From Coriolopsis trogii (lineage: Eukaryota; Basidiomycota; Agaricomycetes; Polyporales; Polyporaceae), in contig JAHYIO010000001.1 of assembly GCA_020543525.1 (NCBI GenBank), positions 3,410,001 to 3,474,000 of the forward strand: a stretch of DNA of 64,000 nt, written 5' to 3'. Positions 1 to 44,401 of the stretch are shown here, piece after piece. Below the pieces are notes generated by a model. That model did no database searches. It was not told the DNA's origin and was given only the letters and a program-made list of their open reading frames with translations. Position 1 is the first letter of the stretch; every line of letters starts with the position of its first letter. Made by a program: the position numbers and the translations under genes.

Positions 1-2460
1 GTCAGCAGGCGAGGGTGGCGAGAATATTGTGCTTAGGCAGAACATGTAAGAATGTCGACACTGTGCGGTGAGCAGGCGAGGGTGGTGAGAACACTGTGCT
101 TAGGCAGAATATGCAACAATGTCGACACTGTGCGGTGAGCAGGCGACGGTGGTGAGAACACTGTGCTTAGGCAGAATATGCAAGAATGTCGACACTGTGC
201 GGTGAGCAGGCGACGGTGGTGAGAACACTGTGCTTAGGCAGAATATGCAAGAATGTCGACACTGTGCGGTGAGCAGGCGAGGGTGGTGAGAACACTGTGC
301 TTAGGCAGAATATGCAAGAATATCAACTCTGTGCAGTGACCAAGCAAGGGTGGCAAGAATATCAACACTGTGCGGTAAGCAGGCGAGGGTGGTGAGAACA
401 CTGTGCTTAGGCGGAATATGCAAGAATATCCACTCTGTGCGGTGACCAAGCAAGGGTGGCGAGAACATTGTGCTTAGGCGGAATATGCAAGAATATCCAC
501 TCTGTGCGGTGACCAAGCAAGGGTGGCGAGAACATTGTGCTTAGGCGGAATATGCAAGAATATCCACTCTGTGCGGTGAGCAGGCGAGGGTGGCGAGAAT
601 ATTGTGCTTAGGCGGAATATGCAAGAATATCCACTCTGTGCGGTGACCAAGCAAGGGTGGCGAGAACATTGTGCTTAGGCGGAATATGCAAGAATATCCA
701 CTCTGTGCGGTGAGCAGGCGACGGTGGTGAGAACACTGTGCTTAGGCAGAATATGCAAGAATATCAACTCTGTGCGGTGACCAAGCAAGGGTGGCAAGAA
801 TATCAACACTGTGCGGTAAGCAGGCGAGGGTGGTGAGAACACTGTGCTTAGGCGGAATATGCAAGAATATCCACTCTGTGCGGTGAGCAGGCAAGAGTGG
901 CGAGAATATTGTGCTTAGGCGGAATATGCAAGAATATCAACTCTGTGTGGTCAGCAGGCGAGGGTGGCGAGAATATTGTGCTTAGGCGGAATATGCAAGA
1001 ATATCAACTCTGTGGGGTGACCAAGCAAGGGTGGCAAGAATATTGTGCTTAGGCGGAATATCAACTCTGTGGGGTGACCAAGCAAGGGTGGCAAGAATAT
1101 TGTGCTTAGGCGGAATATGCAAGAATATCAACTCTGTGGGGTGACCAAGCAAGGGTGGCAAGAATATCAACACTGTGCGGTAAGCAGGCGAGGGTGGTGA
1201 GAACACTGTGCTTAGGCGGAATATGCAAGAATATCCACTCTGTGCGGTGACCAAGCAAGGGTGGCGAGAACATTGTGCTTAGGCGGAATATGCAAGAATA
1301 TCCACTCTGTGCGGTGAGCAGGCGAGGGTGGCGAGAATATTGTGCTTAGGCGGAATATGCAAGAATATCCACTCTGTGCGGTGACCAAGCAAGGGTGGCG
1401 AGAACATTGTGCTTAGGCGGAATATGCAAGAATATCAACTCTGTGTGGTCAGCAGGCAAGGGTGGCAAGAATATTGTGCTTAGGCAGAATATGCAAGAAT
1501 ATCCACTCTGTGCGGTGAGCAGGCGACGGTGGTGAGAACACTGTGCTTAGGCAGAATATGCAAGAATGTCGACACTGTGCGGTGAGCAGGCGAGGGTGGT
1601 GAGAACACTGTGCTTAGGCAGAATATGCAAGAATATCAACTCTGTGCAGTGACCAAGCAAGGGTGGCAAGAATATCAACACTGTGCGGTAAGCAGGCGAG
1701 GGTGGTGAGAACACTGTGCTTAGGCGGAATATGCAAGAATATCCACTCTGTGCGGTGAGCAGGCGAGAGTGGCGAGAATATTGTGCTTAGGCGGAATATG
1801 CAAGAATATCAACTCTGTGTGGTCAGCAGGCGAGGGTGGCGAGAATATTGTGCTTAGGCAGAACATGTAAGAATGTCGACACTGTGCGGTGAGCAGGCGA
1901 GGGTGGTGAGAACACTGTGCTTAGGCAGAATATGCAACAATGTCGACACTGTGCGGTGAGCAGGCGACGGTGGTGAGAACACTGTGCTTAGGCAGAATAT
2001 GCAAGAATGTCGACACTGTGCGGTGAGCAGGCGACGGTGGTGAGAACACTGTGCTTAGGCAGAATATGCAAGAATGTCGACACTGTGCGGTGAGCAGGCG
2101 ACGGTGGTGAGAACACTGTGCTTAGGCAGAATATGCAAGAATGTCGACACTGTGCGGTGAGCAGGCGAGGGTGGTGAGAACACTGTGCTTAGGCAGAATA
2201 TGCAAGAATATCAACTCTGTGCAGTGACCAAGCAAGGGTGGCAAGAATATCAACACTGTGCGGTAAGCAGGCGAGGGTGGTGAGAACACTGTGCTTAGGC
2301 GGAATATGCAAGAATATCCACTCTGTGCGGTGACCAAGCAAGGGTGGCGAGAACATTGTGCTTAAGCAGAACATGCAAGAATATCAACTCTGTGGGGTGA
2401 CCAGGCGAGAGTGACAAGAATGTCAACACTATGCAGTGACCAAGCAAGTATATCAGGCTG
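1..2460 (+). repeat. Left ~67-bp tandem repeat array
   Basis: About 2.4 kb is built of a unit close to 67 bp that contains the core gtgcttaggcggaatatgc, then an aagaatatc step, a ctctgtgcggtgagc block and a gggtggcgagaa block. Some units lack about 22 bp, so 67-bp and ~45-bp periods mix. Variants (gtcgacactg versus atcaactctg, gcgacggtgg versus gcgagggtgg) recur in the same order: the block starting at base 1 is repeated from about 1822 with one extra unit, so there is higher-order structure. The array is cut by the window start. The last, diverged units fade out around 2400-2460. The reverse complement of the same unit forms the array at 41.6-43.5 kb. No coding function is likely, because 67 is not a multiple of three and the open frames across it exist only because the unit happens to lack stops. 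Confidence 0.95.
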
Positions 2461-2645
2461 TAGCTATTGCCACCATCGTAACTTTTGCAGGCAGCGTCTG
2501 TACACAACTCTGTACATGGTGGTGAGAAACACAAATTGCTTTGACATTGGTATGTGCCGCAGGGCAAAGCTAGCAGCCACAACTTAGCCCGTACCTGCAC
2601 TGCATGTGGCTTGGGCGTCTATCGCCGGACCGGCATTACAAAGCC

Positions 2646-2702
2646 GGAGCCGCCTCAGGATGCTCCCAAGCCGCGGCTTGCAGACCGAGCCGGGCCTTGC
2701 AA
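2646..2702 (+). repeat. GC-rich dispersed repeat, copy 1
   Basis: A ~57-bp GC-rich segment (ggagccgcctcagg, then aagccgcggctt, then gagccgggcc) lies just inside the left tandem array. A clearly related copy is present in the opposite orientation at 37681-37733. The central aagccgcggctt is itself a 12-bp palindrome. I do not recognise the element. It could be part of a SINE or MITE, or an internal inverted repeat of the larger unit. Confidence 0.6.
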
Positions 2703-2986: not shown

Positions 2987-5900
2987 TCAAGCCTCCCATG
3001 GTGACTGCTGGAAATTGAGCCACAGCCCTGTAGGAGGCGGAGAGAGTGAGATTGACAACGTTGACAACACAGTGATACACAACCATATTACTGACTCTTG
3101 TACATCCGGATGCAGACTGAAGTCGTAGGGTTTCGTGCGAGCCTCCAGGTCTTCTTTCTGTATCGGCCTGAGGCTATTGTACCAGGCGGGGTTGTAAGCG
3201 TTCACCGGGAGTCCTACGACGGCCCGAGTGGCGGACTGATCAGTGGATAGGTAACGGAGGCGTGGTGCCGAACCGCGTTTACTACCCGCGCCGGCCCTCT
3301 TGCGCCATCTTCGATGTAAAGCATCAAGAGCATGGAGGAACCTCGTAACATCAGGGTGCCGCCAAGGTTTCTGCAGGACGCGATAGCGAGTGAAAGGGGC
3401 GTCGACGTCTTCCTCATCTGAACTCATGCCATCAACTCCAAGCTTCTTGATGATCCAACGATGCTTCTTCGTCAAACGGTAGTGGCTAGCGATTCTGTAC
3501 CGACGTTGAAATAACTGGTGATCGTTGATGTCTTCAGTTACAAAGCACCGCGAGAGTCATGACTCACCGAGTACTTCCTCTGATATCGACTGTGAAACTT
3601 GCTCATGTCTTCGTTGCTGCGAGCGGTCGCCTTACCCTTCCCCTTCGCAGAGCGGATAGCATTCGCCCCATGATCCGGCGCGAACCAAACGGAATTGGGG
3701 TTGCGATCATCAGACGTTCTCGGACGTGCCCTCGTAGAACTCGAAGCTTCGCCATCGTCCGCAGGGTCCTCAGAGTCAGACGCTGTTCGTTCCACACCGT
3801 ACCGCTCGTAGTGACGCTGAAGGGTGCGAAAATGGGCTTTGAACATCTTGGCGATTTGCTTGCGATCTTTGCACGTATGTTGAGCAATCTGGAGGAAATC
3901 AGAGACGAAGACATTCGTCGCCGATTTGTTCCACGGGGAAGCGGCCATGCCATGTATGTCGATGCGGAATCGCTTTGCAGTACAACACTCGCCTTCTTCG
4001 CGGTCGAATCCACGCACTTCAGCAGGGGTTGCGATACATCGTCTGGGGAACGGAGAAGTCTTGTCACCCCTCCGCAAGAGACGCAGAGCGTGTGCCTGTA
4101 CGTCTGACTGAAAGAACATAATCAGGGGACGTAAGTTTATAATACGGAGTAACTCACCGCAAGTTTGTTGCGTTGAAGAGATCTCGGTCGCGCGGGCTCA
4201 GTGAGCTTCTCGTGTTCCTCGACATCACCATCGTATTCTTCCCCGCCATCGGCGCTGCCGCCGTCGCTGCCGTCGTGCTCGTCATCGACTTGACGACGAC
4301 GACGCTGCTTATTGTGGGACGTTCCTGAGCTGGTCCGATTGTTCGAGTTCGGTGGATTGTTCTGGGTGAGACGACGGATCTCTGTCGATAATCCATCGAC
4401 GGCAACCGCCAAGCGAGATACATCTCCCTTGCTGGCTGGCTAATGTACAAAGTTAGCTAGCGATCGTAAGACAGCATGAGTTGTGCGTACAAGTCGCTGC
4501 GCGGATGGATGTGTGCTACCGACCGGAGAGGAACTCGAGTTGTTCGACCTGTGAGGAGGAGGAGGAGGAGAAGGAGGAGGAGGAGGAGGAGAAGGAGGAG
4601 GAGGACGAGGAGGGAGACCATTCGGTGAATGAGAAACATTCAGAGGAGCCGTTGTCGGAGGACGAGGGGGACCGCTGTTTGGCGCACGCGAAGGGCCACT
4701 GTTCGGCGGACGAGAGGGACCACTGTTCGGCGGACGAGAGAGACCACTGTTTGGCGGACGAGAGGGACCACTGTTCGGCGGACGAGAGAGACCACTGTTT
4801 GGCGGACGAGAGGGACCACTGTTCGGCGGACGAGAGGGACCACTGTTCAGTACACGAGGGGGACCAGCGCTATTCAGAGGAGGGGCGTTTGTCTGTCGAG
4901 GCGGGGCGGTGTATGGTGTATGGGGAGTGGCCTTGTTAGGTGAACGTGCGGATGTACTCGGCGTGACCGGATGCATAGGGAGCTCCGGTGGTGTTGAACG
5001 TCGTGATGTAGGCTCATAGTTAGATAATGGAGAATCAGATGGGTCAATAGGAGGGAGTGACTTCTTCCTTGCTGGCGAACGGCGCGGAGTTCCGTCTTGC
5101 GTAGGAGCAGCAGGAGAGGGACGCTGAGCGCTGTGCTGATGCGCCGAAGGAGAGCGCAGCGCATCAGACTCCTCATCTGAGTCAGGAGGCTCCCTCTTGA
5201 CAACAACACTGGCTTGGCGTGGAGTAACCGTACCACGACTAGAATCGTCGGAAACATCTGCTTTCTTCCGCTTGACGGCACGCCTAACAGACTCGTGCCT
5301 AGTAGGACTAGAAGGTTCCGGCTTAACGACAGGATCCGAAGGTACATGGCGTTCGCGCGCGTTTGGTCGCGGGCTTGCGGACGATACGGCCGGTGGAATG
5401 TTCCGTGTCGGCCGAGAGTGCGGTGAATGTGCTTGAGACCGTGTTTGCCCTTTTGCTCGCGGTGTCGAGGGCTTACCGGCCTTGATGCGTACTAGCTTGA
5501 AATTGATAGTGGCGATCGGCTCGACGGGTCCAGATTCATACGTCGACGATTGTCTGAGTGGCTTGATCGACGATCCTGCAGCGGCGGAGGGGACATTGGA
5601 GGCTGAGCTCACATACAAATCATCTATATCCATCACGTCCCTGTCGTGCTGGAGATGGCCGCTACTATGCTGAGGAGACTCCTGGTCATTCGATTGAGAT
5701 TGGGGCGCTGTAGTCCCATGACGCGCGCCATCCTTGCCTTTTCCGCCATCACAACCGTTTGACTGACCAGCAGACTTGATAAGTGTCAGACACATCATGA
5801 TGCAGGCTGTGGAAGGGAACTCACATCGCTACTACCCGGAGGAGCCGCCTGCGTCATCGGGTCTGTGCCCTGGTGCGCCAGATTTTGCGGACTGTCCTTC

Positions 5901-8900
5901 CCTGACCTCGGAGTGGGGTCTACAGGCGTAGAAGTAGACGGCACGGGTATGAACTTGGCAAGGGGTATGGTATTGGCAGGAGCGGTGGGTGACTGAGCAA
6001 GTTCCCCACCCGGGAAGACAGATTGTAGGGTCGACTTGGCGGAACTGAGCCAAGATCCACCTAGCTGACGAAGGGTACCGATGCCCATCACAGCAGTCTG
6101 GCGTGGAGTCGTAGACTGTGCAGACCCGGATACCGTGTGATTACTTGAAGAGCGCATGTCTACATGATTGGCTTCCTTGGAGATCTCCGTCGTGGATGTC
6201 GTGGTGTCACCGTTCAGTGAGGCATCTTTCCCTAACGGCATCTGATGATCACCGGGATTGTTGTTCGCAGGTGTACTGAGGATCTTGTGCATCTGTGTGC
6301 CTGTCAGAATCAATCCCGCGCCTACGGGGAACGCGCACTCACATCAGTCGCACCGTCTCCTGATACGTTGTCCAAAGCTGTCGCATCTTTGCCTTGCTTC
6401 TTCTGCATGGCCTCAGGCGATAGAGACGGTGGGTGGATGGCTGATGCGTTTGCATGTATAGCCCTTGGCGTCGGCGATCGCGATCCATGCTGCTCAGCAG
6501 GAGTCATTCGCAACCCCTCTGCGTGGACGTTCACTTGGCTGGTGCCTCTCGGTGTGGACGATCGAGAATCAGAAAGCACGACGTCCATCTCAACTTCATC
6601 GCACTCGACCTCTGAGGGAACATCGCCATGTTCCTCGGGATCCTGATGATAAGATATGAGAACGACCTTGGAACAAGCATGTCTCATCATCCTACCTCAG
6701 CTTCGTCCGGAGGACGTGGCGTCCCGTCATCTTCGTCTTCGGATGCTAGCTCGAGCTCCGAGTCTTGTTCCATGAAACCATCACTGCTGCCGTCTTCAAA
6801 TGGGATGCGCCGGGCGTCCTTCGTACCTGCTCTGGCATCCCTCTCCGAGTTCGGCACACTGCTGTCACTATCATGACCTCGTTCCGACGGGTCAACTGCG
6901 TCAGTCGGATGGTCCATCGCATTGGAGAGGTCATGAACCATGTTCGTCTGAACGCTGTCCTGGATGGGTAGAGTGGCATTAGGGGAGATTTTGTTGGCAC
7001 CCTCTCGAGGCCCTCGGACGAAGACATTATCTTGAGATTGAACCATCAGCAGTTAACAAGACGCCAAATAGCGAGACAGCTCACTCGTATCAGCGGTGGA
7101 AGGTGTATTGCAGCTCGATGCATCCACAGCACCGCGAGGCTCGGACTTTGGAAAGGAATTGCAGTTCCGAGTCGCATCAGGGACGGCGCTCATGGGCTCG
7201 TCGACGGGACTGCCTGGATGAGACGCTCCATTGATAGGGGCGTCGTGGCGCTGCTGTGGGTGGGGGCTGGAGATGAACTCGTGGGCGGGACTGCCTGGCT
7301 GGGACGGTTCGCCAACAGAGACATCGTTGAGCTGCCGTGCGTGAGGGCCGGTCATAGACGCGTCGGCGGGACTGCCTGGCTGGGACGGTTCGCCGATAGA
7401 GACATCGTTGGGCTGCCGTGCGTGAGGGCCGGACATGGACGCGTCGGCAGGACTGCCTGGCCGAGACGCTGCGTGAGGGCCGGACATGGACGCGTCGGCA
7501 GGACTGCCTGGCTGGGATGGTTCGCCGACAGAGACATCGTTGGGCTGCCGTGTGTGAGGGCCGGTCATAGACGCGTCGGCGGGACTGCCTGGCCGAGACG
7601 CTGCGTGAGGGCCGGACATGGACGCGTCGGCAGGACTGCCTGGCTGGGATGGTTCGCCGACAGAGACATCGTTGGGCTGCCGTGCGTGAGGGCCGGTCAT
7701 AGACGCGTCGGCGGGACTGCCTGGCCGAGACGCTGCGTGAGGGCCGGACATGGACGCGTTGGCAGGACTGTCTGGCTGGGACGGTTCGCCGACCGGGGTG
7801 TCGTTGGGCTGCTGTGCGCGAGGGCCTGACATGGACGTGTCGGTGGGACTGCCTGGCTGGGACGGTTCATCGACGGAGACATCGTTGGGCTGCTGTGCGT
7901 GAGGGCCGGTAATAGACTCGTTGGTAGCATGGCCTGGCTGGGATAGTCCATGGACAGAGGCAACGTTGAGCTGTTGTGAGTGAGGACGCTGGGGGTCGCC
8001 GAAAGAGAGAGCTGGAGGCGCAGCCCGAGAAGGCCCAAGCGAGGTGTGCTGGGCCTCGCGGCTCATCGTGAATGTGAACTCCTTGTATGGGAATCCGTCG
8101 TCCTCGGCCCCGATCTCCTCGTCTTCGTCGTCCTTCGCCCCGATCTCCTCGTCTTCGTCGTCCTCGGCCCCGATCTCCTCGTCTTCGTCGTCCTCGGCCC
8201 CGATCTCCTCGTCTTCGTCGTCCTCGGCCCCGATCTCCTCGTCCTCGTCGTCCTTGGCCCCGATCTCCTCGTCCTCGTCGTCGATGCCCATCTCCTCGTC
8301 TTCATACACCACAGCCTCGCCTTCGTAACCCGTCTCCTCACCTTCGTAACCCGTCTCCTCACCTTCGTAATTCGTCCCCTCGCCTTCATCGTCCATACGG
8401 ACGTCATTAGCCGGTCTCGTCTCCTTGCAACCCATGCCGTGATCGTTTATCAGCTGTTGAACCTTCTCGTTGACATGACCGCTCTTGGCTAACTCCATGA
8501 GTTCATGCAGGAATTCGTCCTTTGAAGGACCAGCAAAACACCTCTTCTTGTTCACTCCTGCGAACTGATCGCGCTCCTCCATGGCTTTCGTACGCGCCCG
8601 CATGCGAAGACGATCTCTATACGTCATGTAAGATTGTCGGGATGGACCTTCCGGTGGTTCATCCTCCACATCGGACATGTCCCCTGTCTCTTCGTTGTCT
8701 GGGGTGAAACGTTACTGAGAAGAACGATGATGGATGGACAAAGCGGTACGTACGGTCGTTGTGCCCTTGATCTACTGTAGACGTGTTCTCTGCCTCACTG
8801 TCCTCTTCATCTCTCGCATTGCGTTTCTTCCTTGAACCTTGACAAAGCATCAGACACTACTGTTCGATAGCGGCTGTAAACACTAACCTGTACGCGCGGG

Positions 8901-11444: not shown

Positions 11445-12158
11445 TTATGCACTTGAATCCACGAAACGGGCCCATCGTGCAATGATGGGACGTATGACGT
11501 CCGTCCACTCCTTCACACCGCGTGTTCCTCCCACATGACAAAACCTGAAGATCTCTTTGTGCGTCTTCCTACCTGGGAACGAGCGGCAGATAGGGTACGA
11601 GTGTGTTGTTGGAACAAGAACACAACAAGCCCGAAGAGACAACACTTACAATCACGACACTTCACTCTCACATTTTCGGCTATGTCGGCTAGCTCAATGT
11701 GGACGAGTTGTTCGAGCTTATGGCAAGCTTTGCCTGGGGGCCCGATATCGAGGTCCTTGAGAGCGACGCCACGAACGACATACGCACTTGGGGACGGCCA
11801 GAACCCCAAGAGAACGGGGCGCGATCTCGGGCAGGATCGCGGCCATTCCTCGAGTCGACGCTGTATATTGTTCGTGCGGCCCACTTTTATGTCCACATAG
11901 CCGCGTGGAGCTTTGTCTGAAACGTATTAGAAGCAGCACACACAACACACACCATATACGCACTCTGTACCATATAGGCGTATAAGTACCCTTCTTCGTC
12001 AGAAAGAGAGATCTTCTTCTTCATTTCCTCCTCCAAACGTTCACGCGTGTTCTTCAGCAGGGTGCACGGAATGTATCCTAGGGAGTTCAGCACCAACGGA
12101 GAGGAAGCGCTGAGTTACGCTTACTCTTGTTCACGGTCATGCTTCTGGTTCGCGCCAT
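11445..12158 (-). CDS. DUF1766 / T5orf172 (GIY-YIG-like) domain protein
   Basis: Four exons reconstruct a compact protein of about 190 residues. The ATG is at 12158 (MARTRSMTVNK), and a ~47-nt intron, a ~46-nt intron and a ~77-nt intron splice in phase, ending at the stop at 11445. The motif order matches the DUF1766/T5orf172 family: EEGYLYAYMVQ, then DIKVGRTNNIQRRLEEW, GFWPSPS, CHKLEQLVHIELADIA, a CRDC pair followed by KTHKEIFRF, and EWTDVIRPIIARW. This domain belongs to the GIY-YIG nuclease superfamily, with GYLYAY and IKVGRT in place of the GIY and YIG strands. In fungi such proteins are mostly uncharacterised, and fission yeast Mug113 is a named relative. Nuclease activity is not shown. 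The gene is complete with no frameshift, lies among other minus-strand cargo genes, and is only 58 bp from the next gene's stop. Confidence 0.75.
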
Positions 12159-12216
12159 TGTTTCTGGGAGTTGAGAAAGGCTGATAGAAATGAGATAATC
12201 AGGTAGGAAATGCTCG

Positions 12217-12622
12217 CTAGAGAGGAGAGAGACCGCCCCAGTCGGTTGACCGATAGAGTTGGAGAGGAAGCCGACGCTGCTGAAGCTCCCGGCGAATTGC
12301 GCGACACATGAGAGCGAGAACCTCGAGAAGGCTGACTGACAGTGCGGTAGCGGCACATGCCAGAAGTACTAGTGCCGCAGTGCACAAGAACCTGAGGAAC
12401 ACCCATGTCCGGGACGGACCGGACACGGTGTGTGCTGCAGCGCCGCCGTAGGTGCAGTTAAGCACTTCCAGTAGTACCGAGGCCCACAGTAATTCAATCT
12501 ATAAGACACTACCTGTTCATGGGTTAGAATACGATGGATCGTTAGAAGCAATCATAACTCACCGTACACCTAAGGGGCCTCCTGGCCGCGCTCCCTGGGT
12601 CAGTATGGCTAGGGTGCCCCAT
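12217..12622 (-). CDS. Small two-helix membrane protein
   Basis: The ATG at 12622 opens a short first exon (MGHPSHTDPGSAARRPL). A ~70-nt intron (donor gtgagt, acceptor ttatag) joins it in phase to a second exon ending at 12217, giving roughly 110 residues. The second exon begins with a hydrophobic stretch (IELLWASVLLEVL), has a small glycine/alanine-rich loop, and then a clear membrane helix (FLRFLCTAALVLLACAATAL), followed by a basic tail (RAIRRELQQRR). No family is recognised. It lies directly upstream of the DUF1766 gene on the same strand, which makes it part of a row of minus-strand genes. The gene model rests on phase and hydrophobicity alone. Confidence 0.5.
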
Positions 12623-13473
12623 TGTTGACCTACGCGCAGAAACGTATCGCAAAAAATAAATAATGTCTCCCCCAATGCTCCCATCAGCCACTGCCTGTCT
12701 TAAGCTTCCACCTCATGTTGCATGAGTGTCTCGTATCGAGAAGACGAACAAGCGCCAGGCCGGAGCTGCACTTGGACACAGCCACACATGAGATCCTGTT
12801 CCCACACCGCCCAGACTGGGCCGTGAGATGCCATTGCCATACACGTTCGTTCCTAAAAGGGCAGCCTGACTCGAGCGTCCACATCTTCATATGGCAAGTT
12901 GTGCCCGTATCCGTGGAGGTCCGCGGCTCCCCAGCATGTCTTCCGTCTAACAGAGGCAATTCTTAGAATATCATATGCATCAATTCAAAGAAAGGACGTA
13001 CTCGGACAGGTGTAGAGATCATCGACCTGTTGGATATCGAGGCTTCACTGAGAATATTCCATAGGGTAGATGGGCACAAGCGCGTGCGGCATTGCTCCTG
13101 AGAGCGACACGCTCCTGCCTGCATCTTTGTCGGCCATGCCGAGAGGAAAGCCGGTACTGACGAGTCGCGGAAAGTTCACGCGGCCGTCAGTATCGCTGTA
13201 CTTCGGCCTTCGTCTCTCTGATGACTGACATGCGCTGCTCGAGGACCCGACGTGCGCACACGGGGTTTGCCTTGGCTCTTGCGCATGAATCGTCCTGCTC
13301 GTCCGCGAGAATGAGCCCGTAGATCCCGCTTGAGAGAACGGAATATAGAAGAAGAATCCAATTTTGTGGGGGGCGGGGGTTCTAGGAGGAGCCGTCTCCT
13401 CGACGCTGTCATCTCCTCAATGCTGTCGTCTCCTCGATGCTCACGCCATCAAGGATGTGCTTGACCTCTCTCA
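12623..13473. other. Gene-free stretch
   Basis: Open frames of up to 91 codons occur (12684-12959 and 13176-13412, minus strand), but neither shows a recognisable motif or a convincing exon partner. One of them could be an upstream exon or a short unknown gene. Confidence 0.4.
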
Positions 13474-15324
13474 CTAGGGTGGTAGTGGAAGAGTGGTCAG
13501 AGTTGCGGATGAGTTGTCGATGTAGTGTCTGTCGGCGTAGTTGCCCTCGAAGTAGGCGGCCTGACGGGAGTAGTCCTTAGTCCCTACAGATGGCGGTCGA
13601 TGATGGGGCGATCTTAGGAGCGATTGGAAGCTCGACCAAGCTATCCATGTGACGGACATGGATTTCTTGCACTCGGAGGGGACGGAGATGAGACCACTCG
13701 ATGACGTCTCGGAGGGGTACTCCGCGCCGGAGGCATCCTTGTAAACGGTGTTCGTGAGGCGGTTGGAGACAACAATGGCATGCCGCTGGCATTCTGCGTT
13801 CAAGAAGGGGTTGTCAGAACGAGAATACAGGTGACGGCGCGCAACGCATGCAGCGCCAAGGAAAATGTGTTTGAAAACAGCTGGAAACGTACGCCGAGGG
13901 CACATCATATAGCCCGTGTCGCTTCGCACATACTGGCTGCGACAACAACCGCTCGCAAAGGTCAGCGGTTTGGGTACGGTGCATAGCATAGCCAACGGAT
14001 TACACAAAAGTCTGGTAACTTAACATGCTAGAACGTGGAGCTCACGAAGGTACTGTCTACACCACCCTCAGTCAAACGATGGCCTCTGCCGACAAGAACA
14101 TTGTTATGAGTTTTGTGACCGCTGCGCTAGAAGAATGACTCACCAAAAGCATCGAAGGCGTCCTGGAATCCTTCTTCCTGCGGCTCCTGTACGCAGAGAA
14201 GGTCTCCTTGGTGACCCAGCTGGGATCGCCGTTGCGTTGGAAGTGGAGACGACGCGATCGATCCGATGGCTGCCTATCCCCGGCACGAACCGAAACCCAA
14301 AGCCCATGGGCGTTAAGTACCCATGATTTGGTGCGAGAGGTCCGCTCATCGATGTGAAGGTAGAGTTCATCCACAGATGTGCGAAGAGACGGAGGTGGAT
14401 GGCATACAGTGTACCGGCCAGACGTTCGATACCATACCGTCTGGCCCTTTCCGCGCCTGAAATCTTTGCTGTCTCGATACTGGTCCCAATCAGTAGCATC
14501 GCCATATGTGATACCCTGTACGTCGTCCTCGTCCTCGGATACAGAGACATCTGCCGTCTCAGGAGAGACGCGGATTTCGTCAGGAGAACTCGCTGAGGCA
14601 GCGCCCCACCCGGTACTCGAGGAAGAGTCGACAGGATCTTGTGGATCAGTGTCATCTGTCTCCGACACCGCAGCGCCATTATGAGGCACATCGTTCGATG
14701 GACCCTCGAGCGTGACGTCTTCGGGATCAGCAAGACGCACGACCTCCTGCCGAGAGTTGATGATGTCTGACGGGGCCGTTGCTTGTCCAAGGTCATCACA
14801 GGACGAAGGCGGTTGGATGGTCGGAGAAGCGCTCGAGAGTTTTTTGCGACAAGCCATTGCTTTGCGAGAAAATCGGATGAATGGAAGGGGAGCTGGAGAA
14901 CCAGTGGTATTGTCGGAATGGCGAGGCAGAGTAGTACGAGAGTCGAGCAAATCGTGACTAGTCCCTGCGATGGCAGACGTGCCAAGTGAGGGACATGCCG
15001 ATGTGTTGTCGATGAGATTCAACGAAGAGGAGGGAACTTCTACACCCTAGCCGTCAGGCTATGCGTTCCAGCCTAATCGAACCACTCACCAATATCATCG
15101 ATCCGGAGGTTTACCACCGAGTCGTGGTGTCCGGAGGAGATTGTCGTGGCGGTTACAACAGCAGGCTCACGAACTGCTTGTAGACGAATTAGTTGTGTAT
15201 CAATACAGAGCTGTCAGTACTCACCGAGATCGTTATCGGAAACTGGTCCGCCGTCTTGTTGTGAATCCAAGGCGAGTGGCTCGTAACCAAAACTCGATCT
15301 GCGAAGCGACATTGATAACAGCAT
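13474..15324 (-). CDS. Fungal protein of unknown function (C-terminal YFEGNY family)
   Basis: The ATG at 15324 (MLLSMSLRRSSFGYEPLALD) opens a five- or six-exon gene. Exons splice in phase through introns near 15190-15235 and 15048-15092 into a ~316-codon exon that is Ser/Asp/Glu-rich, ends in a more ordered block (SWVLNAHGLWVSVRAGDRQP) and stops at a donor near 14148. A short linking exon near 13890-13930 is followed by the last exon (about 13790-13474), with HAIVVSNRLTNTVYKDASG, GLISVPSECKKSMSVTWI and DYSRQAAYFEGNYADRHYID before the stop. From memory, the C-terminal motifs belong to a large basidiomycete family of unknown function that occurs in many copies per genome. The gene lies 456 bp downstream of the transposase stop on the same strand. 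No enzymatic motif is seen. Confidence 0.6.
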
Positions 15325-20179: not shown

Positions 20180-20236
20180 CTGCGAACGCCGAGGCTGATC
20201 AGATTTATCAGTGTACCTACGTTAGAGTGAGATGAA

Positions 20237-28776: not shown

Positions 28777-28997
28777 ACATCACTAGTTTTGCGCCGCGTA
28801 CACATTCCTCATTGCAATGTACTTCGTTCTCTCTGGCTCGCTTACATAAAGGACGCTACGGTCCACCGGAATCTGAAGACGGGTGAGAACGAACCTCGTG
28901 CCCTCGGCACCTTTGTGCCATCGCGCGCGCCCCTCGTGTCTTTTCAGACCGTACTTGAGACGGCGAGCATGTTTCTGCAGTTGTCATCGTCTCACAT

Positions 28998-30601: not shown

Positions 30602-30936
30602 GACGTAACATTGAACAACACCAGTAGTCGGTCATGTGCTTAGGCTAAGCTTGAACGAGCGGGCTGTTGACGATGCCATAAGCCGTAGTGATAACATACA
30701 TGCTTGTACTTACGCACATGTGCCAGTATTCTGTCTTCGGTTTTACGGTATGATTCCTCTGACTGATGGTTCCCTGCCAGTATGCTCCGCCCGAGCGTTG
30801 GAGGCGATGGACCTTGGCCCTAAGCCTGGTGATGTTTGGCGCCCGGCCCACGCCACTCCAGTGCTCTAGCACTGACCAGCATGCCCTTGCCCTCTTCCAC
30901 CGTCGACTACCTCCTCCCGTTATATCTCCTCGAATA

Positions 30937-32245: not shown

Positions 32246-34134
32246 ATGTCTCCCTACACGGTGGCACATCGTCTCTCGGGACACGTCAGATCTATCAATA
32301 CCATCGCCTTCACTCCTAATGGCCGTTACTTGGCTACTGGTGCAGACGACGGTATTATCTTTGTCTTCGACGCCGAGACAGGCCAAGAATATCGCAAAAT
32401 CGATGGACTGGTTCCAGTCACAGCCCTCTTGTGGTCGGACACCACGGACGAGTTGTACGTGGGCTTCGGAAACGGGAAAGTCATCCTCACGGGCATACTC
32501 GCGGTGCGTCCTCATTTCCATTACCAAAATTCCCTGCAGCTCTAGGACTGACATGGAACCCAACAGCCCGTTCCGTCTGCTCACGATTTGTCTACGTACG
32601 GACAGGGAATCGTTGAAAGCATTGCGCATGACCGGTATATTGGTCGCTTGGCTGTCTGCGTACAATCCCAAGTAGAGGTATATGCACTGGTTGAACCCTG
32701 TAAGTCATTGCACCGGCGAGTCCCATCATTTCGTCCCACTGATGAGTTCACAGTACTTTACAGAACTAGAATTTTACCCCACCCCTGCCCTCTGAAGACT
32801 GTTGAAGAGGTATACCATCCACCGGTGGGGAATCGGGGCTCCTCGGGACTCCCGAATTCTCGTCGAGCCAGTACTCCTGTCGTTGTCGCAGATGACTCGG
32901 ACGTCAGTGACGATGCCGAACCATTCCGTCCACGGACGGCTCGCTTTATGAGCAAAGGACGCCAACTTCTCATCTCATACCTTGAGCACGGGGTTTAGTG
33001 TGTTGCATATATACATTCGGCCGTATGCTACAATCGGATCTGATCTGTGCTCGTCTCGCAGTATCTGGGACTTCGACATGGAAAATTACAGCTGCATAGT
33101 CAGAACTCGCACGTAAGCTCTCTCTCATGGCCTCGTCTGGGAACGACTCTGACTGAGCACTTCGACTTAGTGGATCTTGTGCAGTGTCTGCAGATGAGAC
33201 CACCATCGCCATATCTAACCTCTATGACGGATTCGATCTCTACCGTGTAGGTGATGGGTCGCACATACGTACTCATCGTTTGAATACCAGTATCAACGTA
33301 CCCCTGCCGGCGCTATTCATCGAAAGGGACTCCCGTCTTTTGATGGGTAGCTCTTGCGGTCTTGTGTCAATCGATGACTTGCTCACTGGAAAAAAGGTGC
33401 AAGAGCTGAATCATGACGGTGCGCTTGCGTCATCCATTATTGCTCGGCTGTAATGTCCCCTCTGACTATAAATGCGCAGGAGAGATTGTGCAAGCGATTG
33501 TGCGCGAACAGTTTCTTCCTATGGCGTTCAATCTGATAGTTTTCCAGGCATCCTGCACGATGGAAGATGGCAGCCATTTGATAGCGACCGGATGTTCTAA
33601 GAGAGGTCCAGATACTGTTGTAAGAATTTGGCGAACATCGGCTAGTAGCAAGACGAGTATAGTCGGCGCGCAAGCCGAAGAAGCCCCCTCCGAGTTGAGC
33701 GTCACACCCCTTGCACACGACCAAGAGCCGGTCATGGAATCAGCGGTGGCTAGCAGGCTGGACGGCACTGTCAAGTTCTACGCAACGGAACTTCGTGCGC
33801 TGATCTGTTCTCTCTCTCGTCGCGAATGCACTCCATGCTGACTACCTGCTCAGTAATCACCCTTGGCCTTGTTTCGATTTTGACGCTGCTCGCACGGACG
33901 CTCGGCGCGCAATTGGACTTATGGTACTTATGGTCTGTCTTCAACCAGCAATCGGCTCTCGCAGTAAGTTCCAAGCCTTTTACTGGATCCTCTGACTTGA
34001 GTTCTTGTCAGGCTAGCTACTCTCACCGGTTTTCACCACTCGCCGTATGCACAGCGACAATGAAAGCGACTTGGTTGAGAGCTCGGACCCTTGCCACCCG
34101 ATTTGCCGAGTGTGTGTTCCACCATTGCTCCTAG
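32246..34134 (+). CDS. WD40-repeat protein with C-terminal membrane helix (copy 2)
   Basis: The ATG at 32246 (MSPYTVAHRLSGHVRSINTI) opens a textbook WD40 blade: AFTPNGRYLATGADDGIIFV, FDAETGQEY, ALLWSDTTDELYVGFGNGKV. Exons then splice in phase (donors near 32502, 32700, 32998, 33112, 33420) through AHDRYIGRLAVCVQSQVEVY, a disordered acidic insert (VVVADDSDVSDDAEPF), RQLLISYLEHGVYIWDFDME, CAVSADETTIAISNLYDGFD, LLMGSSCGLVSIDDLLTGKK, and GSHLIATGCSKRGPDTVVRI. The terminal exons carry a membrane helix (SVITLGLVSILTLLARTLG) near 33845-33905 and a short basic tail to the stop at 34134. The exon join just before the helix (around 33840) is not certain. The layout matches the WD40 gene at 28998 despite low visible identity, so an old tandem duplication is likely. 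Confidence 0.7.
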
Positions 34135-34639
34135 TACTAGACCGTTCTGACTGTCCTGGGTAGGCTCATTCAGCAGATGGGCGTCCTAGAGTGGTGAAGA
34201 GGCGGAATGGGGACTACCAAGTCGGTTGTATGTAGGATACTTGACTCGAACAGGACGGTTGGCTTCATGTCACGAAGCCTGAAAGAGCGAGCAACTTCCG
34301 CAGCGGATGCCTGGTCAGGATAGGTAGTGAGATACCACCGGCAGGGTGTCCGGATGTGTACTCAGGGAAAGTAACGCCTTGTATATGCCAGAGCTGCGCA
34401 TGCAGTATCAGCGTACCGATGATGACTTTGAAGATAGGAGTACTACCACAATATTGGCTTAGACACCAGTACACGCGAGGATAACCCGTAACTGAGCGCG
34501 CGCTTCAATATTGATAATCGTCTCCTCTGCTCGGCCGTGTGCATGTCCTCTCCTCTCCTCTCCTCTCCCCTCTATCCTCTTCTCGTCGTCGTCTTCCCCG
34601 TCCGGCCTCCGAACTCGACGTCCTCTGCGTGCCGTCATA
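34135..34639. other. Intergenic, pyrimidine-rich
   Basis: No gene is seen here. A tctcc/ctcct tract at about 34547-34575 resembles the pyrimidine-rich leaders common upstream of fungal genes. It directly precedes the Chs7-like pseudogene, as if the host promoter had been carried along. Confidence 0.4.
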
Positions 34640-36280: not shown

Positions 36281-37557
36281 ATGGCTCCAGGACTAGGAGT
36301 CGGGTTCGCTATAACGTTGATTGAGTCGTTCACCCAGGCAAACACAGATATCTCAGCTTCTTTGGACATGCAGATTGAAAGGTTCGGACAAAGTGGCGCG
36401 ACCCCTTTCCTCCATGCTCACCCCATGCTTCACAGTCTATGCGAGAAATATTCGTTACCTAGAGACCTGGGAAAATGGGTTGTTACTCTGTCTTCACGGT
36501 CGAGTTGCGACCTCGACATCCTCAATGAGGTCATGAAGGGCGAAATCCTTTGTGTTCATTGCATGTTGTGCGAGCTCTACCCAGCGAGTGGGGAGCTAGC
36601 ACCCCAGTTGGAGTCGACGGTCAAAGGACTTAACCAGAGCTTCAAGAGCAGTATTGATAAGTGGTACGAGGTCAGTTGGTCCAAGCCGTCTACCTCAACG
36701 CCCGTGTGATCCTCACATTGGTCTAGTTCAAGATGCTGTTCGATGGCTACGTCCTCTTCACCGAGAAAGGGGAGCGGGAGGTTTTGGAGAAAGTTTACCC
36801 GGAGTATGAGCGGACCTCAATTTGGCTCACTGAACGTGTCAAGGGCGTTGTTACGGAACATGCCCGTCGTGAGGGTTGTTTTGACTTCTTGTTCACCGAG
36901 GTTCGATATCCAATGTGAATCCGCGGCAAAAATACTGACTAGTTTGCCAAGGAGGGGCAGATTAAATTCAACCTCGAGCTCGAGTATCGCAGGAATTGGT
37001 TGGCCAACATGTGTTGCAGACAGCTTGCCGAGCTTGTCGACGAATTACGCCAGCTCCAGAGTCGACGTCAGCAAATCAGACGGGACACCGCTTCCTTATG
37101 GGACTCTGACTTCAATTCCTGGTTTAGCATGGCAGCCGAACGTCTTTCTACTCACGACTTTTGTTCAGCGCTAGCGCGCTACACGTTGTTGATGCAAGAA
37201 CTCGACGCTCAGACGCAGCGGCAGAACGAGTTGGTTGTTCGACTGAAAGTGAGTCGCATGTACGATCTGGCAGTTTGATACTCAATCTAGGCTCAGGCAC
37301 TTATGGGCAATGCAAAGGCCCAGTCGACGAGTATTAACGTGGGGGGGAAGCAAGGGATTCCTCTTCAGGATCTTCGCAATGCGGGTCAACAATTCGACCG
37401 TATGATGAATGACTGTTCCCTGCTTGCCGAGGTACGTCTCTGCGGTTGATGATCTTAGCACAAGCTCTCATCAATATGGCAGGACTGTCGATTGTTGGAG
37501 GAGGCGCTGATCGGGCACATTGACACATTGAAGAGAGCACGCGAGTCCGTCCAGTAA
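36281..37557 (+). CDS. Predominantly helical protein of unknown function
   Basis: The ATG at 36281 (MAPGLGVGFAITLIESFTQ) opens a first exon of 130 codons. At least four further exons follow in phase (from about 36726, 36942, 37290 and 37484), ending at the stop at 37555-37557, for about 370 residues. Visible segments include HAHPMLHSLCEKYSLPRDLG, LDILNEVMKGEILCVHCMLC, LFDGYVLFTEKGEREVLEKV, RQLAELVDELRQLQSRRQQ and LMQELDAQTQRQNELVVRL. The protein is rich in amphipathic helices with heptad-like Leu spacing in its C-terminal half and has no membrane helix. An upstream exon (35875-36039, LLRELWIVEAKVRGMHALSL) may belong to the same gene, which would move the start. No family is recognised. It is the last intact plus-strand gene before the zone of captured gene fragments. 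Confidence 0.55.
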
Positions 37558-37680
37558 GACTGTGTGCTGTGGTCGGGCCAACAGAGTATGTAGCACATCC
37601 ATGTTTCATTTAGCTTCGTTACACGCAATGTTGTACGGAGCTCAGGAGATATCAACACGTTCAGGCACACACAGTGAGTT

Positions 37681-37733
37681 GCAGGGCCCGGCTCAGCCTG
37701 TAAGCCGCGGCTTGGGGGTTCTGAGGCGGCTCC
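37681..37733 (-). repeat. GC-rich dispersed repeat, copy 2 (inverted)
   Basis: Its reverse complement aligns along its whole length with 2646-2702, sharing ggagccgcctcag, aagccgcggctt and gagccgggcc with a few substitutions and a short gap. Confidence 0.6.
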
Positions 37734-37890
37734 AGTTGGCAATCCTCTGAGCCGAACCTTGCATAGGGTATGGCACGGCTCGGGTATGGGTATTTCAAAG
37801 AGGACCCGACCCGTATACCCTTGGGTGTTCGTACGGGTAGACGGACGGGTGGATGGAGCAGTGTCATAGGCGCTCTGAAAATAAAAACTC

Positions 37891-37954
37891 ATCCACTTCG
37901 GGACTCGAACAGCAAACCAACAAGATCCCAATACTCCGACTAAGCCAAATAGAC
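37891..37954 (-). other. tRNA-like segment with A- and B-box motifs
   Basis: On the minus strand there is a good RNA polymerase III A box (tggcttagtcgg, 37936-37947) and a B box (gttcgagtccc, 37900-37910), and flanking 7-nt segments can pair as an acceptor stem with several G-U pairs. It is only 64 nt long and the anticodon and T stems do not pair well, so it is not a working tRNA. A decayed tRNA or the head of a tRNA-derived SINE is possible. Confidence 0.35.
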
Positions 37955-38095
37955 TTCCTTACGAATAGTGCCATGGACAATATGGTGAGTGACGACCCTT
38001 CTGCCCTGTCTCACGTGCATCTTCATCTCCGCTATCTCGCTCGCTCGCCCTCTGTCTCTATCTGTGTCTCTCTTGTACCCCCCTGCTCTGTCGCG

Positions 38096-38160
38096 CGCGC
38101 GCTGTCTCTTTCTCTTTCTCTTGCGCTCTCTCTCCCTCTTGCGCTCTCTCTCTCTTTCAC
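38096..38160. repeat. CT-rich low-complexity tract
   Basis: Runs of ctctctttctctttctctt with gcgctctctctc interruptions give a polypyrimidine tract on the plus strand. No function is inferred. Confidence 0.8.
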
Positions 38161-38400
38161 GCACTCTGGCGCTCTGGCTGCATACCACCAAGGCTACAAT
38201 CACAACGACCCGCGACTCGGACGACGAACTCCAGATGAACGCAAAGGCGCGCCCACTGACGAGGTTGCGTCCTTGCGACGATCACTGAGAGGGTGGCGAC
38301 AAGACGTTGGCCAGGAGGTCTCGAGACACTCAGAACTGAATGTTTTGCAGGTACACAGATTGCCTTCCATCCGCGAGCTGTCTGAAGCGACTCTGCCAGC

Positions 38401-39081
38401 AGATTCGGTTTCCACAATGCGTCCGCAATCGACAGCTTCCCAGCCAAGGAGGATTTTTCGCTGGAATCCATCCTCGACGAGGACGACCTTCTCCAGGAGT
38501 GCAAAGCACAGAACACACGTCTTATCGACTACTTCTCTCGCGTCAATGTCTTACAGCGGCTCCTGGGTTACGTGACAGGGCAGATCGAGGGCGGCGAGAG
38601 GGGCAGCTTCAAGTGAGTGTCTGCTCATGACCGTAGCGAGCGTGTCGGCTCAGTCGCTCGATCCCTGGAGGTATCCATATGTCGCCACGGAGGTCTTGTG
38701 CAGCGAGATATTCTCAATAGTCGACACCTGCGTCAACCACAAGGACCAATTACTTGTGCCTTTCTGGGAGACCGTCCTTGACAAGTCCCCAGAGGAGATG
38801 GGGAGCCAGGTCATGATGGCGACGCACTTCGCAAAAGTGAACGTTGCATTCTTGAGCAAGAAGTCCGCGGAGGTGAATACATCCCATTTACCCCTTCCCC
38901 ATCCCCTCCCGTCTCCCGTGGCGTGAGTTCTGAGTGGGCTGCTCAGATGTTGGCGTACGTCCAAGCGCAGCCTGACATCGTCGAGCGGATTTTGGCCCAC
39001 ATAGAGTCGCCGCGGTTTGCGGCCCTCCTCGTCCTCATCATCCAGCTGGACGAGCACCCGGCAGGCGCTGGCGTTCTTGAA
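38401..39081 (+). pseudogene. Truncated SAPS-domain (Sit4-associated protein) gene fragment
   Basis: Three consecutive exons with correct splice sites (38401-38612, 38671-38872, 38947-39081) encode RFGFHNASAIDS, LDEDDLLQECKAQNTRLIDY, RLLGYVTGQIEGG, YPYVATEVLCSEIFSIVDTC, LLVPFWETVLDKSPEEM, HIESPRFAALLVLIIQLDEH and PAGAGVLE. These are hallmark motifs of the N-terminal SAPS domain of Sit4/PP6-associated proteins, which are normally over 800 residues. Here only about 180 residues remain. The usual start (MFW before RFGFHN) is missing, with a stop directly upstream in that frame. The next exon, expected to begin with WLSEE, is reduced to a tgattgatgaggagg-like remnant at about 39144 in which the Trp codon reads as a stop. 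The surviving exons have no frameshift, so capture was probably fairly recent. Confidence 0.8.
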
Positions 39082-39837
39082 GTAAGTTCTCCTTCATGCG
39101 TTGTATGCGCGCTCGTGGATCACTCTTACCCCAAGGCGTGCAGTGATTGATGAGGAGGTGAGTGAGGACGGCGTGGCGAGGGGAGCAGAGAGACGGGTAT
39201 AGAGAGGTGATGAAGAGGGCGAGGGCTTTAAGGGCAGTGAGAACAGCGAAGGCCTCGACGGCAGCGAGGGCAGCGAGAACAGCGAGAGCAATATCCGCGA
39301 ACATGGCAAGAGCAATCCCTCGGTACACTTGCCAGCTTCGCAGTCCTCACTCGTGTTCTGCTTGCCCTCCTGGTGGTCCCTCGGACTGTCCTGACCGTCC
39401 TCTTTGCCATCCTCGTCCTCACCATTCTCTCTGTCTACACCTGTCCCTGCCCTCATTCGTCACGCATCTCCTCGTGTCTTGACAGTTTCTTTGTTGAGGG
39501 CAAACGAGGAGGGCGGCGAAAGTCATGGCTTCGAGGATGAGGACAAGGATGAGGACGCATCAGTGGAAGCTGTACTTCTCGCTGTCTCTATTTGTATCTA
39601 TACTTGCAAATATCCTGGTCGTACGGGTCTCATTCCCGCAAATCCGAGAACCAAATACTACTCCCGGAAACTGCGTGTTGGAATGACAAATGAATCTACT
39701 GTTGTATCTGTGCCGATATCTGTCGAGTTTGCTGGTGAACAGGCCACCCATTTTGAGCTAATACATGAGCTTGCCGATGGATACATTTGCTGTAGGTTGA
39801 CCCGACACATCGGCACTTACTTGATCACTACAAAGGA

Positions 39838-41634: not shown

Positions 41635-43485
41635 CTTAGTTACCACATAGGGTTGATATTCTTATAAGTTCTGCCTGAGCACAAGTGTTCTTGCCACCCT
41701 CAAATGGTCACTACAGAGAGTCGATATTCTCCCCACCCTTGGTTACCGCACAGAGTTGATATTCTTGCCACCCTTGCATGCTTACCGCACAGTGTTGATA
41801 TTCTTGCATATTCTGCCTAAGCACAATGTTCTCCCCATCCTCCTCTGGACACTACACAGTGTCAACATTCTTGCATGTTCCACCTAAGCACAATGTTCTC
41901 GCCACCCTCACCTGCTCACCGCACAGGGTTAATATTCTTGCCACCCTTGCTTTGGCTACCGCACAGTGTCAACATTATTGTCTGTTCCACCTAAGCACAA
42001 TATTCTTGCCACCCTTGCATGCTCACCGCACAGTGTTGATATTCTTGCATGTTCTGCCTAAGCACAATATTCTCGCCACCCTCGCCTGGTCACCCCACAG
42101 AGTTGATATTCTTGCATATTCCGCCTCAGCACAATATTCTTGCCACCCTCGCCTGCTCACCACACAGTGTCGACATTCTTGCATATTCCGCCTAAGCACA
42201 ATATTCTCGCCACCCTCGCCTGGTCACCCCACAGAGTTGATATTCTTGCATATTCCGCCTCAGCACAATATTCTTGCCACCCTCTCCTGCTCACCGCACA
42301 GTGTCGACATTCTTGCATGTTCTGCCTAAGCACAGTGTTCTCGCCACCCTCGCCTGGTCACCCCACAGAGTTGATATTCTTGCATATTCCGCCTAAGCAC
42401 AATATTCTTGCCACCCTCACCTGCTCACCGCACAGTGTTGATATTCTTGCCACCCTCACCTGGTCACCCCACAGAGTTGATATTCTTGCATATTCCGCCT
42501 AAGCACAATATTCTTGCCACCCTCACCTGCTCACCGCACAGTGTTGATATTCTTGCCACCCTCGCCTGGTCACCCCACAGAGTTGATATTCTTGCATATT
42601 GCGCCTCAGCACAATATTCTTGCCACCCTCACCTGCTCACCGCACAGTGTTGATATTCTTGCCACCCTCGCCTGGTCACCCCACAGAGTTGATATTCTTG
42701 CATATTGCGCCTCAGCACAATATTCTTGCCACCCTCGCCTGCTCACCGCACAGTGTCGACATTCTTGCATGTTCTGCCTAAGCACAGTGTTCTCGCTACC
42801 CTCGCCTGCTCACCGCACAGTGTCGACATTCTTGCATATTCCGCCTAAGCACAATATTCTTGCCACCCTTGCTTGGTCACCCCACAGAGTTGATATTCTT
42901 GCATATTCCGCCTAAGCACAATATTGTCGCCACCCTCGCCTGCTCACCGCACAGTGTCGACATTCTTGCATATTCCGCCTAAGCACAATATTCTCGCCAC
43001 CCTCGCCTGGTCACCCCACAGAGTTGATATTCTTGCATATTCCGCCTAAGCACAATATTGTCGCCACCCTCGCCTGCTCACCGCACAGTGTCGACATTCT
43101 TGCATGTTCTGCCTAAGCACAGTGTTCTCGCCACCCTCGCCTGGTCACCCCACAGAGTTGATATTCTTGCATATTCCGCCTAAGCACAATATTCTTGCCA
43201 CCCTCGCCTGCTCACCGCACAGTGTTGATATTCTTGCCACCCTCGCCTAGTCACCCCACAGTGTCGACATTCTTGCATGTTCTGCCTAAGCACAGTGTTC
43301 TGGCCACCCTCGCCTGCTCACCCCACAGAGTTGATATTCTTGCATATTCCGCCTAAGCACAATATTCTTGCCACCCTTGCTTGGTCCCTGCATAGTGTTG
43401 ATATTCTTGCATGTTCTGCCTAAGCACAATGTTCTTGCCACCCTAGCCTGGTCACTGCACAGAGTTAATATTCTTTATAGTTCTA
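41635..43485 (-). repeat. Right ~67-bp tandem repeat array (inverted relative to left)
   Basis: About 1.85 kb of the reverse complement of the left-array unit: attcttgccaccctcgcc, tgctcaccgcacagtg, then atattcttgcatattccgcc and taagcacaat. It has the same mixture of full ~67-bp units and shorter ones lacking the gcatattccgcctaagcac part. Units at both edges are more diverged (ctacagagagtcgatattct at 41.71 kb; ttatagttctatctgagtat at 43.47 kb). Array orientation, unit and length variation make it the mirror image of the array at 1-2460. Confidence 0.95.
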
Positions 43486-44401
43486 TCTGAGTATGATATT
43501 TCTCCCAGTCTTGCTCAATTATTGCCCCACGTTCTTCACAATATTAATACACTTCACATTTGGCTGTCCATAGTTAAGTTTGTTTGCTCTCAGTAAGTTG
43601 CTTAGTTTTGGTATTGAGTATCTGTAAGGTGCAATAAGTAGTTGCAGGTAGACATAAGTAGGCTCTAGTTATTGTCACTTATATAGTAGAAGTATCTAGT
43701 GGTAGCCATAGTAGTAGCAGTAGTAGTAGTGGTAGCGGTTTAGTAGTAGAACTAGTAGCAATTATTGTGAACTTCATTTTGATCATACACTATTTATATT
43801 CTGAATGTGAACACAATATGTTTTACATATTACCAAAATATCTCTTATTACCATTCTGTAGAATGCATTTCAAATGTATTGTAATTTTGACCCATATATA
43901 ACATTTGCCCCCATTTGTAACATATGGGGTTTATATACTTAATATTACCACCCTGTGACACAGATGAGACTACTGTGTGGCATAAACTCCCACTTCTATC
44001 TATATTGTAAACATATTACTTGTTTTACCTGAATTTGTTCACTATGAGACTCTATCTCATATTGGAAGCACATAGTAATCACATCTCAAATATCTCCGGC
44101 ATGTGGTGCACAGACCTATAGAAAACCCATAACAAATGTAACAATGAGCTACATAGGTGAGTTTCTTGGATTGTTACATATTGATTATAGAGGGATCATA
44201 TTTGAAATATGACCAGCATGTAACGCAATGGGACATGCTGGCCTCATTCGGCCAATTACTAAGATGTGATCAAAATGTGACATCGCGTTACATGGGTCCA
44301 TGCCCCCGGTGCCGATGATGGGCGAAAACGCGTCCAAAAGATTGTATAGTCTCCTGTCAACCATTGCACAAAGCTCGCCGGATTGATGGACAAACGGTTC
44401 A
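43486..44401. other. AT-rich stretch next to the right array
   Basis: From about 43.49 to 44.21 kb base composition is much more AT-rich than anywhere else in the window, with a gta/tag-rich tract at 43690-43765 and no gene. Near 44.21 kb composition returns to normal at a hairpin-forming segment. It may be the terminal non-coding part of the accessory unit. Confidence 0.5.
44213..44294. repeat. Inverted-repeat (hairpin) segment
   Basis: ccagcatgt (44213-44221) pairs with acatgctgg (44233-44241), and catgtaacgc (44217-44226) pairs with gcgttacatg (44285-44294). Together with the composition change here, this is a candidate terminal structure of a DNA transposon. Confidence 0.5.

Follow-up and report, generated by a model that had tools for sequence, protein, structure and literature searches.

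A probable giant EnSpm/CACTA-type DNA transposon carrying predicted genes in the basidiomycete Coriolopsis trogii

The stretch of DNA analysed here (the window, 64,000 nucleotides at full length) comes from the polypore Coriolopsis trogii, where it spans C1:3410001-3474000 of a 38.8-Mb assembly in 39 contigs (GCA_020543525.1, C1 being contig JAHYIO010000001.1). Its first 44,311 positions hold most of an element of 47,189 bp (C1:3407123-3454311, or window -2877 to 44311) in which a transposase gene, g5, and further predicted genes lie between terminal inverted repeats (TIRs) and two arrays of a 67-bp unit. The evidence set out below indicates that this element is very probably an EnSpm/CACTA-type DNA transposon of giant size that moves by cut and paste, as one piece, in a basidiomycete. 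Copies, empty sites and a second family were all compared within this one genome; the genome searches scored the best candidates alone and skipped very common words, match counts are lower bounds, and statements that a sequence occurs only at certain places hold for these searches. The features that define the element are listed here.

1..44311, no strand assigned: the part of the element inside the window, defined by shared ends, the target site duplication (TSD) CCG/CCG and the second copy on contigs C5 and C2
1..2440, + strand: the left subterminal 67-bp array as far as it falls inside the window, which is its right part; in full it measures about 4.4 kb and, in the C1 copy, holds 65 core sites
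15780..20736, - strand: g5, Tnp2-type transposase, a 1500-aa model with 9 exons (main open frame 17613-20198)
41717..43475, - strand: right subterminal 67-bp array (26 core sites)
43362..44311, - strand: right TIR, 950 bp, its inner end overlapping the right array
44312..44314, no strand assigned: right copy of the 3-bp target duplication CCG, from the alignment of the ends

A preliminary description, drawn from the window alone, had proposed one mobile unit from the arrays, with a left end beyond position 1 and a right end at 44300. The left end was located 2,878 bp before position 1 (C1:3407123-3410000), complete with a TIR and target duplication, and the right limit proved essentially correct, the exact end being 44311. 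The TIRs are 950 bp long, start with CACCGGGGGC and are 99.05% identical between left and right; CCG is present at both flanks. Alignment of the sequence outside the four arrays in the genome placed one boundary, CACCGGGGGCATGGACCC, at all four ends, beyond which the flanks differ, and CACCGGGGGC is present at 4/4 ends of this family (family 1). A 792-bp terminal sequence was found at four places in the genome, all of them element ends (4/4 candidates scored). All eight genome matches to CACNNGGGGCATNNNCCNATG are ends of family 1 or of a second family described below, against none for a reversed control; this search misses one more end of the second family (the left C5 end, which has a changed base).

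A second copy is split over two contig ends, with C5 entering it from the left, C2 from the right and both contigs ending inside the element. The two ends overlap by 9.4 kb at 99.57% identity, with 0-3 mismatches per kb except in about 1 kb at the C2 end, which holds 12 mismatches and 20 gap columns. In the orientation of the element TGA stands at both flanks of this copy, and these flanks are unlike those of the C1 copy. Over element positions 10,215 to 44,480, a comparison that leaves out the arrays and the left fifth, the two copies are collinear and 99.7% identical (105 differences and 19 gap columns in 34,246 positions); in the 6 kb next to the left array on its inner side they are 98.8% identical with 11 gap openings. 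Another copy with the same gene order between inverted arrays, which the preliminary description had suggested seeking in related genomes, is thus found in the same genome with different flanks. With the flanks joined, no interrupted gene was found at either site: no model spans the C5/C2 site, and the sole model spanning the C1 site runs antisense across other sequence and was dismissed as meaningless.

The joined flanks gave eight matches in the assembly, four of which are the occupied flanks themselves. A relative of the C5/C2 target at C6:1575314-1575604 is 94% identical over both flanks, uninterrupted and with a single TGA. This site also confirms that C5 and C2 carry the two flanks of a single insertion. 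The C1 target has a relative at C3:270632-270809 (78%) that crosses the junction. The empty-site comparison was therefore positive for both targets in its same-genome form; judged by their alignments, the C6 site is a strong candidate for an empty site and the C3 site the weaker one. The same unit is seen inserted twice, each time with a 3-bp duplication, and the single mobile unit is borne out by TIRs, TSDs, a second copy and empty relatives.

The opposite orientation of the 67-bp arrays is real. A 24-bp array core (at most 3 mismatches) matches the window at 63 places, 37 on the + strand at 46-2398 and 26 on the - strand at 41745-43410, where 100 shuffles gave 0 on average. The unit is modular (39 + 28 = 67 bp), the spacings being chiefly 67 and 39; inverted repeats reach 969 nt at 86% complementarity, and TRF also detects the arrays. 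In both copies they lie directly inside both TIRs in inverted orientation, with 65 and 65 core sites at the left and 26 and 38 at the right in the C1 and second copies, respectively. A two-unit query found at least 97 matches in the assembly, all of which fall into four clusters, a pair of them on C1 and one each on C2 and C5; array and TIR were found just at the four element ends and not scattered without a link to the transposase. The available part of a report on a soybean element (PMC2613891) describes CACTA elements as carrying subterminal repeats and TNPA as binding those of Spm. By analogy, a protein of the present element may bind the 39- and 28-bp modules.

The Tnp2/CACTA-like transposase that had been noted between the arrays was recovered by a Pfam search, the main frame of g5 matching Transposase_21 with E = 1.7e-17. 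Among the best 8,000 candidates scored in a large protein set, seven homologues are 60-70% identical over 49-78% of the length, one of them from Ganoderma sinense. D527, D624, C643 and C646 are invariant in 7/7 aligned sequences, so that C643-x2-C646 makes a C(2)C motif in all; H717 and H727 are also invariant, at a spacing that is not 3-4. A candidate for the last acid lies in FFSERMN (residue 1201 of spliced g5), which occurs also in P0007; residues 512-1467 of spliced g5 match P0007. D527, D624 and the acid of FFSERMN are the putative catalytic residues. A profile of the transposase alignment matched none of the solved structures at E <= 1.

The remaining gene models come from a simple ab initio program written for this analysis, without transcripts. 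Before position 44000 it gave 15 models: the transposase, eight others with good support, either by a score above 25 or by a Pfam domain, and six weak ones. The eight are as follows.

2987..4621, - strand: g0, a 489-aa model of 4 exons with polypore relatives and no Pfam match
4640..8850, - strand: g1, a 1273-aa model, low-complexity and repeat-rich, with no Pfam match in the two frames scanned
11513..12406, - strand: g3, T5orf172/MUG113-domain protein (Pfam PF10544, E=1.7e-11; model score low, 6.4)
13045..15324, - strand: g4, a 637-aa model with no family above cut-off in the two frames scanned
21305..24143, - strand: g6, with hydrophobic segments and family-2 relatives 27-36% identical
25870..30608, + strand: g8, a part that looks coiled-coil by eye, then WD40 repeats
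32246..34197, + strand: g10, with WD40 repeat (Pfam WD40, E=5.8e-11; model score 27.0)
36281..39394, + strand: g12, a 775-aa model with no family in the two frames scanned

The preliminary description had counted at least nine genes besides the transposase; a T5orf172 gene and two WD40 genes are among the eight well-supported and six weak models found here. The Pfam scan covered 19 distinct pieces, with g2, g7, g11, g13, g14 and minor exons left out, and no TET/JBP domain was found among those 19. The 17 relatives of g0 include proteins from Cerioporus, Lentinus, Trametes and Mycena as named organisms, which together with the g5 homologues suggests a polypore host, and weak relatives (33-36%) occur at both copies of family 2. 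PF26792 is listed for some of the g0 relatives, but hmmscan found it neither in P0008 nor in the g0 piece. g1 and g0 may be a single gene. We take the T5orf172 domain of g3 to be GIY-YIG-like. By its hydrophobic segments g6 is a probable membrane protein; it had no relative at E <= 0.001 among 7,851 candidates in the large protein set. The C-terminal piece of g8 matches Pfam WD40 with E=3.3e-16. The main frame of g8 and the frame at the start of g12 match the genome only in the two copies, and to judge from these matches both genes look specific to family 1.

Relatives of the transposase, g0 and g6 cluster at C5:822-853 kb and C8:1109-1134 kb, where a second giant family (family 2) is found. 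One copy occupies C5:801968-860426 (58,459 bp); the other runs from C8:1095693 to the contig end and continues at C39:1-8047, which C38:1-8633 repeats. These limits come from whole-genome matches of 17 kb of the C5 element, together with the ends read and signature matches; about 19 kb of the 58.5-kb copy were read, and of its right 6 kb the last 126 bases alone. The family is marked by CACAAGGGGC and its ends start with CACAAGGGGCATTTCCC, while the left C5 end has CACAAGGAGC; CACAAGG is present at 5/5 ends read (C38 repeating C39), and the flanks are TCA/TCA and ATA/ATA. Direct comparison of two of the stretches, L040 and L041, gave no TIR because the right end of the element lies beyond L040. 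In the stretches read, one model encodes a transposase of 1431 aa and another a g6-like protein of 417 aa. The link of T5orf172 to family 2 is weak, as it covers 33 residues (E 3.7e-4 and 8.9e-4) and 29 places in the genome match the query. The g5 transposase, g0 and g6 thus appear to form a core that recurs in a second giant family, and the recurrence of g0 and g6 argues that both serve the element. These two, first read as cargo, are probably core genes.

Several other observations concern family 2 and the T5orf172 relatives. Inserted just inside the left end of the C5 copy is a repeat, some 520 bp long and structured as an inverted repeat (L041:1077-1595, C5:802077-802595), which is absent from the C8 copy and has many matches genome-wide. 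C1:3225629-3230588 is 88-91% identical to the left part of family 2 (L041:2613-7202), with no signature end found there; it may be where DNA was captured from, or else an old fragment. At C34:73267 a T5orf172 relative (63%) lies about 9 kb from a Tnp2 relative at C34:83006 (38%, in a 681-aa open frame), possibly a third family. Several of the 29 T5orf172 matches, on C9, C20, C21 and C34, lie near contig starts or late on C20, and some recur at the same spacing on different contigs, perhaps as another repeat family or subtelomeres.

The differences between the two family-1 copies point to recent methylation. Of these 105, 99 are transitions and 78 are CpG transitions; with CpG taken as ancestral, the changes from CpG to TpG/CpA number 39 in each copy. 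At CpG, where 78 of 5090 positions differ, differences are about 17 times denser than at the other 29,156 positions, which hold 27 (odds ratio 16.8; P = 2e-42 by Fisher's test). In the simplest reading, both copies would have been cytosine-methylated at CpG since they parted, and only recently: the observed/expected ratio of CpG is still 1.01 inside the element (1.06 and 1.03 in the flanks), so that methylation would not have been long-lasting. Recent arrival or recent silencing would fit this pattern equally.

Fungal EnSpm elements are recognised by CAC..GTG ends and a 3-bp TSD (PMC12730594). Here we find CAC..GTG termini, 3-bp TSDs (CCG and TGA; TCA and ATA in family 2), a Tnp2-type transposase and, in family 1, subterminal repeats. 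Since the ends and TSD fit Kojima's fungal EnSpm and other groups misfit, the element is filed under EnSpm/CACTA, of which it appears to be a giant variant by its ends, TSD and Tnp2 match. The CACTA-like label given earlier thus holds for the class, while the ends are of the EnSpm type CAC..GTG and not canonical CACTA. As far as the available text goes, the fungal EnSpm of the CMCT clade (Kojima 2025, PMC12730594) share 5'-CAC..GTG-3' ends, a 3-bp TSD and an EnSpm/Plavaka-like transposase with C(2)C; the present element differs in its 47 kb, 950-bp TIRs, long arrays and 14 further models (8 well supported), and in that the 19 pieces scanned show no TET/JBP domain. Plavaka elements have a related transposase and Agaricomycotina hosts, but end in TGT..ACA with a 2-bp TSD or in CATCA..TGATG with a 2-3-bp TSD (PMC12730594); membership was rejected, as the termini read match neither. 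KDZ elements were likewise rejected, the TSDs here being 3 bp and those given in the available part of the same source 7 bp (Kyakuja) and 8 bp (Dileera). The 20.5-kb soybean CACTA element Tgmt*, as described in the part of PMC2613891 available, is also large, with a 3-bp duplication, subterminal repeats and a tnp2 transposase; however, its TIRs are imperfect and 13 bp long and it is less than half the size. Chondrus crispus EnSpm elements (16-20 kb, 4-5 open reading frames; PMC6431247, available in part) also carry extra genes, but the host is an alga, the genes are fewer and the size is under half. Within the partly available literature covered, which leaves out the soybean element of PMC4219821 and those of Kojima, the present element appears more than twice as long as the largest CACTA elements (16-20.5 kb), and the openly licensed literature, partially covered, gave no report of CACTA elements this large in fungi.

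How such an element could move can be outlined. The g5 transposase would recognise the CACCGGGGGCATGG ends and would cut at the CACCGGGGG ends; the many array sites at each end could help to pair ends 47 kb apart, and cutting and reinsertion with a 3-bp stagger would carry all genes along, the functions of the cargo being putative. The arrays, with the element itself unaffected, may instead be promoters, silencing nucleation points or by-products of replication slippage and not transposase sites. Their unequal length at the right end in the two copies, next to equal length at the left, and the lack of such an array in the two 10-kb stretches of family 2 read would suit this account, which we regard as possible though clearly the less likely one, because the arrays adjoin both TIRs, inverted, in both copies, as CACTA subterminal repeats do in the available part of PMC2613891.

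Other explanations concern the element as a whole. That two small non-autonomous, array-bearing CACTA elements mobilise the host DNA between them, the interior being host cargo, would account for several interior genes that have no known transposon role, for WD40 genes, which are common among host genes, and for the tested pieces of g8 and g12, which have no match outside the two copies. Yet genome searches found no solo TIR or array, the transposase lies inside, and relatives of g0 and g6 accompany a related transposase in the second giant family, so such a composite is improbable. A segmental duplication or assembly artefact bounded by repeats by chance, with no transposon involved, could draw on the break of the second copy over two contigs and on the small contig C38, which repeats the family-2 end and flank of C39. 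It is hard to credit: the ends are exact, each pairing has its own matching duplication (CCG/CCG, TGA/TGA), the flanks differ, one empty relative carries a single TGA, and a second family repeats the pattern of ends and duplications with other sequences. Starships are likewise giant cargo-carrying fungal elements in the available parts of PMC12289983, PMC12134995 and PMC13066641, the last of which reports them at 42-606 kb in the basidiomycete Tremella fuciformis. A Starship-like element, mobilised by such a group's tyrosine recombinase and carrying the Tnp2 gene as a passenger, would match in size, fungal host and cargo and would have this precedent. However, Starships use a tyrosine recombinase, of which there was none among the 19 scanned pieces, and the element here has a DDE-type transposase, 950-bp TIRs and 3-bp TSDs as in EnSpm; a Starship is thus very unlikely.

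A number of points weigh against the preferred reading of a giant EnSpm/CACTA-type transposon. The second copy does not lie within one contig, its join being made by the overlap, the matching TSD and the C6 site. The C3 relative has a 3-bp gap at the junction, C5:1872268-1872521, a relative of the C5/C2 target (75%), has an 11-column gap there and is uninformative as an empty site, and C8:272677-272802, a relative of the C1 target, ends before the junction; moreover, the empty sites are paralogous and not allelic, because they lie on other contigs. Two insertions are seen, from which movement is inferred, and no excision event was observed. The H(3-4)H motif expected of the CMCT clade was not located in the g5 alignment, and no array like that of family 1 was found in the stretches of family 2 read (the left 9 kb and 844-854 kb). 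Of the codon changes between the copies, 23 are synonymous and 48 non-synonymous, and none creates a stop; these are raw counts without a computed expected ratio, over the 12 of 13 models examined that fall in the compared stretch (g0 lies outside, g1 partly inside, and weak models are included). Coding positions differ at 3.45/kb versus 2.47/kb elsewhere, and on these counts the changes appear to give no sign of selection on the cargo.

Giant gene-carrying transposons of fungi are known mainly as Starships, and here a CACTA-type TIR element reaches 47 kb with at least eight predicted genes, with a 58-kb relative on the same plan. More tentatively, and with the odds slightly against it, there may be a giant TIR-bounded lineage with a DDE transposase in polypores and their kin that fills the role Starships have in Pezizomycotina. 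Two or more families in one genome, deeply diverged and of 47 and 58 kb, would share a core of transposase, g0, g6 and perhaps T5orf172 and swap the rest; their arrival would be too recent for CpG depletion, and the lineage would be undescribed in the literature searched. As the end signature can be searched for, it can be asked what number of the "islands" known from basidiomycete genomes, those at which assemblies break among them, are elements of this kind, and whether genes pass between species with them. It is also testable how a transposase joins ends so distant, perhaps by way of arrays of dozens of site-like modules.

Five contig ends of the assembly (C5, C2, C8, C38 and C39) lie inside giant elements. 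Giant elements break the assembly and hence may be under-reported in short-read genomes. Outside the element, a long terminal repeat (LTR) retrotransposon at window 44407-50909 begins 95 bp beyond the right end; it has 567-bp LTRs with one differing position, a 5-bp duplication (CCGTG) and a single stop-to-stop frame of 1617 codons on the - strand.

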